Source: an uncultured Hyphomonas sp. (GTDB lineage: Bacteria > Pseudomonadota > Alphaproteobacteria > Caulobacterales > Hyphomonadaceae). From it: 64,000 nt of DNA. Position numbers and translations under genes: made by a program. Positions 20,782 through 23,779 of this stretch are shown piece after piece. Position 1 is the stretch's first letter, and the number at the start of each line of letters is the position of its first letter. The notes beneath the pieces are model-generated. The model ran no database searches. It was not told where the DNA came from and saw nothing but the letters and a program-made list of their open reading frames with translations. The stretch covers positions 1,860,001 through 1,924,000 of the forward strand of contig NZ_OY782759.1 of assembly GCF_963678195.1 (NCBI RefSeq), in the 5' to 3' direction.

Positions 20782-21407
20782 TGACGCGGCCGGAGGTGGG
20801 GAAACGGGGATTGCAGCGTCCGGTGCCGGAAACCGCCTGGGAGCGCTACAGCGCGCGCCCGGTCAGGTCGCTGGACGAGTTGCAGATGGCGGCCGCTATC
20901 CGCGCGGCGGTGTTCATGTCGGAACAGGCCTGTCCGTATGAAGAGGAATATGACGGCAACGATCTGTGCGGCACGCATTTCCTGCTATTCGATGGGGCAG
21001 AGCCGGTTGGCACATTGCGGGTGCGTTGGTTCGCGGATTTCGCCAAGCTGGAGCGGATCGCGCTGTTGCCGCGCGAACGGGGGCGCATGGGCCTGCGCGT
21101 CCTGCTGGCGGAAATGTTCGAACTGGTCGCGCGGAAAGGGTACCGGCGGATGCTCGGCCAGATCCAGGCGCGTCTCTGGCCGGTCTGGTCTCGCACGTTC
21201 AACTGCCGCCTCCTGCCGGGCCGGGCGCCGTTCTGGTTCTCGGATTATGAATACCGCGAGATCGAGATTTTCGTGCCAGAGCACCCGGATGCCCTGCCGA
21301 TGGAAGCAGACCCCTACCAGATCATCCGCCCCGAAGGCGCCTGGGATGCTCCGGGTGTGCTTGATGCATCTGCCGAACGGGCGCCGGGGCAGGACGAAGC
21401 GGCGTAG
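20781..21407 (+). CDS. GNAT family N-acetyltransferase
   Basis: A 208-aa acyltransferase of unknown substrate. Residues about 35-110 hold the GNAT core: IRAAVFMSEQACPYEEEYDG, then HFLLFDGAEPVGTLRVRW, KLERIALLPRERGRMG (acetyl-CoA loop) and the following helix. The aromatic C-terminal part (PFWFSDYEYREIEIF) is unusual for a simple GNAT and may bind a partner or a larger acyl donor. It overlaps the previous stop by one base. The layout recalls autoinducer synthases only loosely; no such claim is made. Confidence 0.75.
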   Translation: MTRPEVGKRGLQRPVPETAWERYSARPVRSLDELQMAAAIRAAVFMSEQACPYEEEYDGNDLCGTHFLLFDGAEPVGTLRVRWFADFAKLERIALLPRERGRMGLRVLLAEMFELVARKGYRRMLGQIQARLWPVWSRTFNCRLLPGRAPFWFSDYEYREIEIFVPEHPDALPMEADPYQIIRPEGAWDAPGVLDASAERAPGQDEAA

Positions 21408-21485
21408 CATCGGATAGAATACGCGGACAATCGCACTGTGTTGTATGGTTGAAGAATCGGCAATTTCCGCCGTGATTCGCAGCGT

Positions 21486-21993
21486 ATGGATGGAACGTTG
21501 ATCGTTCATCTGATGAGAAAATTAATGCCCAGGGTTGGCTGCAACCTGCATCGGGTCTGTGTAAAGAAACAATTGGCGCGAACGGATAACGAAGGCTTTG
21601 CGATATTGTGCCGAGCAACCGATGGCTTTCAGTCTGGAATTCCTCCGAGGATCGCTGTTGCTGGCCGATTAATCGAACATTCTCAAGAAGCAATCGTGGA
21701 CCATGTGACCACGCCGCATTTCGTGCACAAGTGGTCGATGGAAACTTTGTTCAATGAACTGTTTCTTACACGGAAGGTTAAGCAGACCGGCAAGGGCCTG
21801 AGAATGCTTAATCATCACAATTTTAATGGCATAGTGCCCGTGGGCAATGCCCTTAGAGATATGGAGAACACCGAATACGGTTGGGAATGTGAGTCGACCA
21901 TTGACGGAGCAATGTTGTTGGCAACCACCAAGGGAAGTCGCCCCTTTCTATGGAAAACAAGAATTGATAGTAGTTGGCGAGTGGGGGTGGTTC
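21486..21993 (+). pseudogene. Unrecognised ORF, possibly the intact part of a broken gene
   Basis: An open frame from ATG 21486 runs as far as 22259, but from about 21994 it is overlapped by a better-supported gene in another frame and its composition loses protein character. The first ~165 codons look genuine (HKWSMETLFNELFLTRK; KGLRMLNHHNFNG; GNALRDMENTEYGW) yet match no family I know. The region is AT-richer than the chromosome. Either this is a real accessory gene whose end was altered by frameshift, or a chance frame. No ribosome site is obvious. The end given is where protein-like character stops, not a stop codon. Confidence 0.35.
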
Positions 21994-22398
21994 ATGACAA
22001 TCGAACAAATACACGAAAACATCGCTCTAAACCGGGAACTGATAGCGGAGACGTGGCAGTTTTTTGTAACTGTCCATCTGTCACTTTTCGGTCTGTTGTT
22101 CTTGATAGACCAGCGCCGAGTGAAGTGGCCGGTTCGGTTCATTATGTTGGCCGCGTATGCGGGGTTCATGTACCTCAACTACCGAGCACAATTGGACAAT
22201 TACAACTACTCATTCGAACTCATCCGATATGGCCTCAAGATAGAAACAGAAAACAGTGATGAGTCTGTCCTGTTGCTGGCGGTATTTGAACCGGGGTGGG
22301 TCGTAAGGTGGTTGAAGTGGATTTACGGGGTTGCAGCAGTGCTTGGTGCAGCACTGATTCTCATTCCACAAAATAAAGCAAGGGCGGGCACCGAATGA
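21994..22398 (+). CDS. Small membrane protein coupled to PLA2-like lipoprotein
   Basis: A 134-aa protein with three predicted membrane helices (about residues 21-38, 47-62 and 107-126) and a polar, Asn/Tyr/Glu-rich loop between the second and third. Start ATG 21994 (MTIEQIHENIALNREL) follows a G-rich ribosome site; the frame is open 49 codons upstream without sense. Its stop overlaps the next gene (ATGA at 22395-22398). No named family is apparent. Given the coupling, an immunity, anchoring or export role for the downstream lipoprotein is plausible but inferred. Confidence 0.6.
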   Translation: MTIEQIHENIALNRELIAETWQFFVTVHLSLFGLLFLIDQRRVKWPVRFIMLAAYAGFMYLNYRAQLDNYNYSFELIRYGLKIETENSDESVLLLAVFEPGWVVRWLKWIYGVAAVLGAALILIPQNKARAGTE

Positions 22399-23372
22399 GA
22401 AGAATTCTAAGTGTCATCGCGTCTTGTGCTTTCGTTGTCTCTTGCGCAGTCAACGGCAACCCATACGTAAATACAACAACCCCAGACGGTCGCGAAACAA
22501 TTTTTCGGTATGGTAACTTCTGTGGCCCCTCATTGCCGGACGGCCTGTCCAGCTACGATTACCCGAGCGAGAAACGCGCCCGCATAGGTCTGATAAAGGG
22601 CCTCGAACCAGTCGATACCGTGGACGCCTTATGCAAGGCGCATGACCTATGTTACGAGATCAACGGCCACGATGACTCTATGTGTGACAAGGCCTTCATG
22701 GACACCCTTGAAACCATCCGTCTACGGCAAAGGTTGTCACGAAACATGCGCTCGTGGGATCGCTCTGGAGAACGATACCCACCCGCAGTCAGGAAATACT
22801 TGAAAGAACACGGCCCTATCACCTTTAGAAACCGCAACGGAAGTAAATGCGGAAGACTGCTTGATCATATGATGATGGCATTCAATTTGAAATTCAGCTC
22901 AGAAGGAGAACATCCTTTATCTAAGGCGAACAGATACACCTACGGAGCGTTGGTATCCCCGTTGATAGCTTTGTACTACTCAGAAGAAACTGATGAAAGC
23001 GATTACCCCGAACCAGGTCAGTGCAAAGACCCAGACTTAGATGTAATGGGCCAATTTCCTTATACCTTATACAGAGTAGCATGTTTGAAAGATGACAATT
23101 TTATCATCACCAAAGCATCCCAAACTCCCCATAAATGCAATTCATTCCCACCAGATTTCACAAGTTCAATTGGCGAGGACAGCACGCACAATCTTCGAGT
23201 CAAATGGCTAAAGAATATGTGTCTGGACAGGTTCATGAGCCCTGTCCCGAACATCCGTAAGAAGCGGTTCTCTGAACTGATACGAAATCGCCCCGACTGT
23301 GATCGCTACATCAGTGTGGATTCTGGTGGAAGTGTTTTCATCAATGAGAAGTATCTTAGAGACCTTCAGTGA
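22395..23372 (+). CDS. Putative lipoprotein with phospholipase A2-like active site
   Basis: A 325-aa exported protein. The N-terminus (basic MRR, hydrophobic stretch, VVSC at 14-17) looks like a lipoprotein signal with Cys17 as the lipid-modified residue. Residues 39-46 read YGNFCGPS, resembling the PLA2 calcium loop, and residues 77-87 read DALCKAHDLCY, matching the PLA2 catalytic motif with His83-Asp84 and paired cysteines Cys80 and Cys86; Cys97 follows. The remaining ~220 residues are unrecognised and contain further cysteines. Composition is markedly AT-rich. It could be a secreted phospholipase or toxin, or an inactive PLA2 relative. The motif is seen; the activity is inferred. Confidence 0.7.
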   Translation: MRRILSVIASCAFVVSCAVNGNPYVNTTTPDGRETIFRYGNFCGPSLPDGLSSYDYPSEKRARIGLIKGLEPVDTVDALCKAHDLCYEINGHDDSMCDKAFMDTLETIRLRQRLSRNMRSWDRSGERYPPAVRKYLKEHGPITFRNRNGSKCGRLLDHMMMAFNLKFSSEGEHPLSKANRYTYGALVSPLIALYYSEETDESDYPEPGQCKDPDLDVMGQFPYTLYRVACLKDDNFIITKASQTPHKCNSFPPDFTSSIGEDSTHNLRVKWLKNMCLDRFMSPVPNIRKKRFSELIRNRPDCDRYISVDSGGSVFINEKYLRDLQ

Positions 23373-23411
23373 TTTTGTGACTATCTGGCTCTTTCAAGAG
23401 CACATTGTCGA

Positions 23412-23487
23412 TACGCTGGGGGAGGTCATAGGGTGTTGGGGATCGATACCCCCATTGCCCAAGGCCCACTCTTAGCCCCCCAGCGTA
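23412..23487. repeat. Nested long hairpin in the gap before tRNA-Phe
   Basis: Outer arms TACGCTGGGGG (23412-23422) and its exact complement (23477-23487) enclose an inner hairpin: 23431-23441 pairs with 23450-23460 over 10 of 11 positions around an 8-nt loop containing ATCGAT. The surrounding gap 23373-23557 holds no gene. Two shorter inverted repeats follow (TTAAGT/ACTTAA near 23494-23508, AACCGG/CCGGTT at 23528-23533 and 23554-23559). It may be a structured RNA, a recombination site or a strong stop after the lipoprotein gene. Confidence 0.55.
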
Positions 23488-23557
23488 CTGACTTTAAGTA
23501 ACACTTAAGGTCTGCACTAGGAGTTGGAACCGGGGTGGGGCTGACCACTCTCTCCGG

Positions 23558-23626
23558 TTAGACGCCCAATCCAACAGTGTGAGGCAGGGAGGCCTTACCG
23601 GTGGTGGCGATGGTCTGGCGTGTCAT
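23558..23626 (-). pseudogene. Possible 5' remnant of a RidA-like gene
   Basis: A 22-codon minus-strand frame, ATG at 23626, with a well-spaced GGAG ribosome site 8 nt upstream. The start MTRQTIATTGKASLP resembles the N-terminus of RidA (YjgF) family enamine deaminases, which begin with an I-S-T-x-K-A-P pattern. The frame stops abruptly at the edge of the AT-rich region, and the rest of a RidA domain (~110 aa) is absent. I read it as a gene truncated when the neighbouring region was inserted. It could also be a genuine short peptide. Confidence 0.35.
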
Positions 23627-23704
23627 TGGTGTGTCTCCAAGTGTATCAGCGTTGGCGCGCACCAGGACAGCACGAGGCGGTATAAGCAATTTGATCTGGG
23701 AAAA

Positions 23705-23779
23705 TGGTGCCCGGGGGCGGAATCGAACCACCGACACGCGGATTTTCAATCCGCTGCTCTACCCCTGAGCTACCCGGGC
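23705..23779 (-). tRNA. tRNA-Phe (GAA)
   Basis: A 75-nt cloverleaf with encoded CCA. Acceptor GCCCGGG pairs with CCCGGGC, D-stem GCTC/GAGC, anticodon stem GCGGA/TCCGC with loop TTGAAAA (anticodon GAA), T-arm GGTGG/CCGCC with loop TTCGATT. The 3' end points at the accessory region. Confidence 0.96.

Follow-up and report, generated by a model that had tools for sequence, protein, structure and literature searches.

A pair of overlapping genes in the genome of an uncultured Hyphomonas sp. encodes a three-helix membrane protein (P0001) and a lipoprotein-like protein (P0002) with a signature of secreted phospholipase A2 (PLA2) enzymes. The pair is real. It represents more than chance because homologues of both reading frames recur elsewhere in the same order and with an overlap, and because PF00068 was the top Pfam match of all four lipoproteins of the family, always at the His-Asp segment. 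The sequence context suggests that the pair is a horizontally acquired two-gene module, both known copies of which lie in low-GC stretches. We propose tentatively, at somewhat below an even chance, that it is a mobile phospholipase module that would act on the cell envelope and whose membrane partner would restrain the enzyme or protect against it in an immunity-like manner.

The gene pair and its insertion site

The window analyzed here is a stretch of 64,000 nucleotides that corresponds to positions 1,860,001-1,924,000 of a 3.67-Mb single-contig genome. The pair occupies the following positions within it.

21994..22398, + strand: gene for P0001, a 134-aa three-helix membrane protein (open reading frame and helix model)
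22395..23372, + strand: gene for P0002, a 325-aa lipoprotein-like protein with a secreted-PLA2-type signature (open reading frame, Pfam and alignment)
22395..22398, + strand: ATGA start/stop overlap of the P0001 and P0002 genes (sequence)

The overlap of two AT-rich genes that an earlier note had described was evident, with GC contents of 0.481 and 0.473 for the P0001 and P0002 genes, respectively, compared to 0.609 for the whole window. Translation of the two genes is likely to be coupled via this ATGA. Neither sigma-70 promoter-like sites (two found vs. 2.8 in shuffled sequences) nor terminator-like sites (four found vs. 2.2, sd 1.4) were present above chance levels. The pair is located in an insert whose surroundings include the following features.

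21408..23655, no strand: low-GC insert (~2.25 kb) between the acetyltransferase gene and tRNA-Phe, missing at the site in 12 relatives
21552..21878, + strand: part of an upstream frame (open reading frame 21486-22259) related to a Phaeobacter plasmid hypothetical protein
23656..23688, + strand: imperfect second copy of the acetyltransferase gene 3′ end (left copy at 21378-21409), flanking the insert
23705..23779, − strand: tRNA-Phe (gaa), which bounds the variable site on the right (tRNA call)

With a GC content of 0.489, the insert was not undercut by any of the 1236 stretches obtained when a 2248-base frame was slid along the window. As the score of the flanking repeat was matched by six of 2000 random pairs, the repeat alone is modest evidence of insertion. 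The acetyltransferase (P0005) is present in 36 of 42 genomes of the genus, that of the window included; 30 of the loci were read and six matches were left out. The 30 loci comprised the window itself, 12 empty sites, two sites with other cargo and 15 loci with no tRNA-Phe nearby which say nothing on site occupancy. At the empty sites (L037-L043, L045-L048, L055) the tRNA-Phe gene is within about 40 bases of the acetyltransferase gene, compared to a gap of about 2.3 kb in the window. The empty sites and the differing cargo among relatives thus reveal a variable site beside tRNA-Phe of which the pair is cargo.

Within the genus, the variable site (21407-23705 in the window) carries cargo in three genomes, namely that of the window, G049 and G054, with the other-cargo loci being L044/L066 and L049/L067. 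In G054, three small reading frames without Pfam matches separate the acetyltransferase gene from tRNA-Phe. The G049 cargo includes a TIR/deoxyribosyltransferase-like gene (below the Pfam cut-off; PADLOC TIR effector, E 4.7e-7), a HipA gene (3.9e-52) and a 1480-aa reading frame in which a P-loop was noted by eye. A detached copy of the tRNA-Phe end that matches a 20-base pattern also was observed in G049, and no whole tRNA-Phe was found within the 20 kb read there.

The TIR-like and HipA genes and the large P-loop-type protein at the same site in a relative are compatible with an abortive anti-phage module in which infection would release the phospholipase from P0001, with destruction of the envelope as the outcome. 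Membrane-destroying effectors are common in defense. However, a single example of defense-like cargo proves little, no PADLOC-DB model matched P0001, P0002 or their Henriciella counterparts P0006 and P0007, and neither family was matched in the viral_contigs collection. Moreover, a periplasmic enzyme would to our knowledge be unusual among known lipase effectors. We regard an anti-phage role as quite improbable.

The frame upstream of the pair shares 34% identity over 112 residues with the Phaeobacter plasmid protein, and bears a weaker likeness to unannotated frames on Sinorhizobium plasmids. It is probably a truncated passenger outside the pair. A frameshift in this open reading frame was considered, but with the Phaeobacter protein as tblastn query no convincing further segment emerged and the frame therefore is referred to only as truncated.

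PLA2 likeness of the lipoprotein

The 325-aa product was noted earlier to combine a lipobox-like VVSC with PLA2-type motifs, and these elements are present in the sequence as follows.

22434..22445, + strand: VVSC lipobox-like site (residues 14-17) with Ala at the +2 position (sequence)
22509..22526, + strand: YGNFCG (residue 39), candidate calcium-loop start, with Y, G, C and G invariant in four of four family members
22632..22655, + strand: CKAHDLCY (residue 80), candidate His-Asp catalytic helix (alignment and PDB profile match)
22683..22688, + strand: Cys97-Asp98 (CDKAF at 97), candidate counterpart of the second catalytic Asp (alignment)

The N-terminus of P0002 is signal-like. Three homologues were identified, namely P0007 of Henriciella, L032 (G370) and L033 (G347), which share 22-30% identity with P0002. 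Residues invariant in the four-row alignment include Y39, G40, C43, G44, D77, C80, H83, D84, C86, Y87, C97, D98 and C152, so that the candidate catalytic residues in YGxxCG, CxxHDxCY and CD are kept in four diverged lipoproteins. We take these invariant residues to be those expected of secreted PLA2, with Cys97-Asp98 presumably corresponding to PLA2 Asp99. The calcium loop motif of PLA2 is Y-G-x-x-C-G-x-G-G. The YG..CG portion of this motif and the His-Asp helix motif C..HD.CY are each invariant in all four proteins, and the glycines that follow the former are replaced in P0002 (PSL).

The E-values with which PF00068 matched the four lipoproteins were 0.0012, 0.055, 1.3e-5 and 0.001, and all four scores (14.4-26.1 bits) were below the curated Pfam cut-off of 32.1. 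For P0002 itself, PF00068 (0.0012), PLA2G12 (0.0031) and Phospholip_A2_4 (0.025) each were matched below cut-off at the His-Asp segment. When a profile of the lipoprotein family was compared to the PDB, the PLA2 structure 3v9m ranked first (E 0.01) with the segment PVDeiDalCkaHDlCYe aligned; the YGxxCG loop was in the right order but below threshold, and the next chains were unrelated with E-values of 0.36 and above. An AlphaFold2 model of P0002 from a two-row alignment was uninformative (pLDDT 32.2, pTM 0.28), and its helices at 74-90 and 94-112, which would be in keeping with a PLA2, carry no weight. As no member exceeds the cut-off and the model has a pLDDT of 32, P0002 is described as PLA2-like and is not filed in PF00068. 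Nevertheless, the motif and profile comparisons support the view that P0002 has the residues on which a secreted phospholipase A2 of the calcium- and His-Asp-dependent type relies. The earlier proposal of a coupled pair with a PLA2-type site is supported in part, by a homologous overlapping pair elsewhere whose absence would have counted against it; structure prediction, which had been suggested as a check, was informative for P0001 only.

The secreted PLA2 families PF00068, PF06951, PF09056 and PF08398 display the same YGxxCG - CxxHDxCY - CD order that is invariant in the P0002 family. However, the latter scores below the cut-offs of these families, possesses extra residues between loop and helix and has a lipoprotein-type signal; P0002 also has about 200 further residues and a partner gene. 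The Tox-PLA2 domain of polymorphic toxins shares the idea of a PLA2-type toxin and a CxxH core, but the domain is characterized by DxC[ST] and CxxHxxxYxN motifs and belongs to proteins with filamentous N-terminal regions (PMC3482391). In contrast, P0002 is a lipoprotein that, as judged by eye, reads CKAHDLCYEIN in place of CxxHxxxYxN and lacks DxC[ST].

Among 105 genomes of the taxonomic family there was no other strong match to P0002, with the Henriciella genome next (E 5.8e-6). Single-sequence scans of genome_contigs and viral_contigs with P0002 gave no matches, nor did the PLA2-like family profile against viral_contigs. Several candidates were set aside: PDB 6i28, the lone match of P0002 by itself (E 0.097), and one match in the phage collection (E 0.5) were attributed to chance; phrog_11353 of unknown function (E 0.0057) was below cut-off and was not used; and eight plasmid matches were to Gram-positive PLA2-like proteins, covered 16-27% of the query and had a best E-value of 0.01. 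Also omitted were L005 (E 0.009, two stops), L035 of G749 (E 8.8e-4, short) and L085 of G394 (E 9.6e-5, two internal stops). Other exported PLA2-like proteins with Phospholip_A2_3 or PLA2G12 matches below cut-off occur in congeners (L003:997-1818 and L004:991-1776). These proteins form a separate group in the tree and were left out of the PLA2 counts, and order-level searches found no membrane-family match in the genomes concerned.

The membrane protein family and its linkage to the lipoprotein

The product of the first gene had been described as a three-helix protein of 134 aa, which agrees with an AlphaFold2 model of good quality (mean pLDDT 79) that possesses long helices at residues 3-37, 45-87 and 101-123 and a short helix at 92-97. 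The protein includes the motif NRxLIxxTWxFFVTVHL ... NYRAQxDNYxY. Searches of P0001 against Pfam, NCBIfam and PADLOC returned nothing above cut-off; the best Pfam match below it, Na_Ca_ex (E 0.0071), was not used, and neither was a DUF308 match of the homologue L017 that was similarly below cut-off. In all eight membrane homologues, the net charge is −1 to −3 on the N-side, +1 to +3 in loop 1, −1 to −5 in loop 2, and neutral or positive in the tail. The topology of membrane proteins follows the positive-inside rule. In view of this rule and the charge bias, P0001 is predicted to adopt an N-out/C-in topology, with both its N-terminus and the part of the second helix that forms a long extension in the periplasm. 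Many invariant residues (R14, T20, W21, N62, A65, Q66, N69, Y70) are predicted to be on this periplasmic side.

Members of the membrane family are present in eight of 398 genomes of the order; at the level of the class they were found in five of 385 genomes, one of which is that of the window. A profile of two membrane proteins identified nine loci in genome_contigs (one Henriciella, six Hyphomicrobium and two unplaced Proteobacteria), only the Henriciella locus of which has a PLA2 neighbor by motif scan, and gave no matches in viral_contigs. Plasmids were not matched by P0001, P0006 or P0007, nor phages by P0006. Two weak extra matches in G290 (L023, L024) were left out of the counts.

The search for co-occurrence in other genomes that the earlier note had suggested uncovered a homologous overlapping pair in a Henriciella metagenome-assembled genome (G028). 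The genes for P0006 and P0007 are in the same order as those of the window with an overlap of 8 nt (ATGGATAA). The two membrane proteins share 42% identity across 119 residues (E 1e-29) and the lipoproteins are related with an E-value of 2e-9. The stretch with the Henriciella pair has a GC content of about 0.50, compared to about 0.60 in the DNA upstream. Downstream are an opposite-strand lipoprotein-like gene, a tyrosine integrase gene (Phage_integrase, 5.9e-11) and a UvrD-like helicase gene. The opposite-strand gene (L006:7198-8037), which is located between the pair and the integrase gene, has no Pfam match.

In the 398-genome order sample, the PLA2 family is present in four genomes and both families in two, in each of which the genes are adjacent and overlap. 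The membrane family is unpaired in six of its eight genomes and the PLA2 family in two of four. Thus, the two genes might be chance neighbors, unrelated passengers on two islands, as both families also occur solo and, without the query genome, they co-occur in one genome only (hypergeometric P 0.05, weak alone). However, adjacency in the same order with an overlap in both genomes is judged very unlikely to arise by chance; it is this adjacency, beyond co-occurrence, that renders the link between P0001 and P0002 convincing, and we consider chance association to be highly improbable. The known pairs are two in number, those of the window and Henriciella. The window membrane protein is closest to the unpaired L017 (49%), and a tree that places the two paired membrane proteins in one clade was not rejected (p-AU 0.127 and 0.159). 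As a consequence, independent repeated pairing is not supported. A comparison of profiles A3 and A7 was not used as the window and Henriciella rows are common to both.

Twelve membrane-family loci, the window and 11 others, were inspected by listing open reading frames, with gene calling obscured in L078 and L082. The neighbor was a PLA2 gene at two loci, a convergent gene for a patatin-like lipoprotein at one and an upstream PhoD-like phosphatase gene at one; no lipase was seen by eye beside the other eight, or at three further loci of the six from Hyphomicrobium. The G290 homologue (L071:1789-3569) overlaps convergently by 4 bases with the end of the patatin-like phospholipase gene, whose product has a lipoprotein-like signal. 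The G086 homologue (L076:2997-5140) shares its strand with the PhoD-like phosphatase gene and follows it at a distance of ~35 bases. Class-level membrane relatives in L080 and L081 are directly 3′ of a sortase-like gene that was named by eye.

A proposed envelope-acting module

An alanine after the lipobox cysteine favors the outer membrane. In the proposed mechanism, P0001 would be made first, by coupled translation, and would be an inner-membrane protein whose N-terminal helix and long second helix are exposed to the periplasm. P0002 would be exported by its signal peptide, lipidated and sent to the outer membrane, on the side that faces the periplasm, where it may cut glycerophospholipids of the envelope; the target could be rival cells or, during phage attack, the host cell itself. 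P0001 would expose its conserved face to the compartment of P0002, and may restrain the enzyme or shield the inner membrane. The mobility of the pair, the variable cargo of its site and the predicted periplasm-facing conserved surface of the partner favor an envelope toxin or defense role with a restraining partner. The solo members of both families speak against such a role. For a partner that is carried along with an enzyme of this type on mobile DNA, an immunity-like role is the simplest.

The main rival to the immunity-like reading is that P0001 is an accessory for anchoring, export or activation that the phospholipase needs, and that the module remodels or scavenges lipids of its own envelope. 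The order of the genes resembles the sitB-sitA arrangement of myxobacteria, in which the genes overlap by 11 bp and SitB aids the lipoprotein toxin (PMC5562445); the location of membrane homologues beside envelope hydrolases in G290 and G086 also would fit. By contrast, two PLA2 family members are solo, which argues that the partner is not needed family-wide, and an insert that, among the 30 loci read, is seen in the window alone is poorly compatible with a housekeeping role. On balance an accessory function appears rather unlikely.

The SitBAI cassettes have further features in common with the pair, namely an outer-membrane lipoprotein, an overlapping upstream gene and mobile (Mx-alpha) units. 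They differ in that SitB is a predicted beta-barrel, the C-terminal domains of SitA are nucleases, and a downstream sitI gene is present (PMC5562445). In the window, no plus-strand open reading frame of at least 60 aa is situated wholly between 23372 and tRNA-Phe. Tox-PLA2 and SitBAI are the closest ideas, and neither fits in the defining features that were compared. Type VI secretion Tle/Tli effector and immunity pairs likewise combine a phospholipase with a protective partner. However, in the Tle3/Tli3 pair it is the immunity protein that is the outer-membrane lipoprotein (PMC9860674), whereas here it is the candidate enzyme. No description of a pair of the P0001/P0002 type was found in the open-licence PMC literature, which is weak evidence of absence.

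A broader proposal builds on the immunity-like reading, although it is unlikely to hold in full: Alphaproteobacteria may possess a mobile system of envelope conflict, so far undescribed, in which an outer-membrane lipoprotein PLA2 is checked by a new N-out three-helix inner-membrane family, other members of which would guard against or work with further hydrolases of envelope lipids and phosphoesters, such as the patatin-like and PhoD-like neighbors. If the immunity-like reading is correct, the pair would be a self-contained two-gene module that attacks lipids and whose membrane partner is of a new kind. Its fold would be one more familiar from venoms and from the immune systems of mammals. 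An unannotated three-helix membrane family in at least five alphaproteobacterial families would thereby gain its first testable role.
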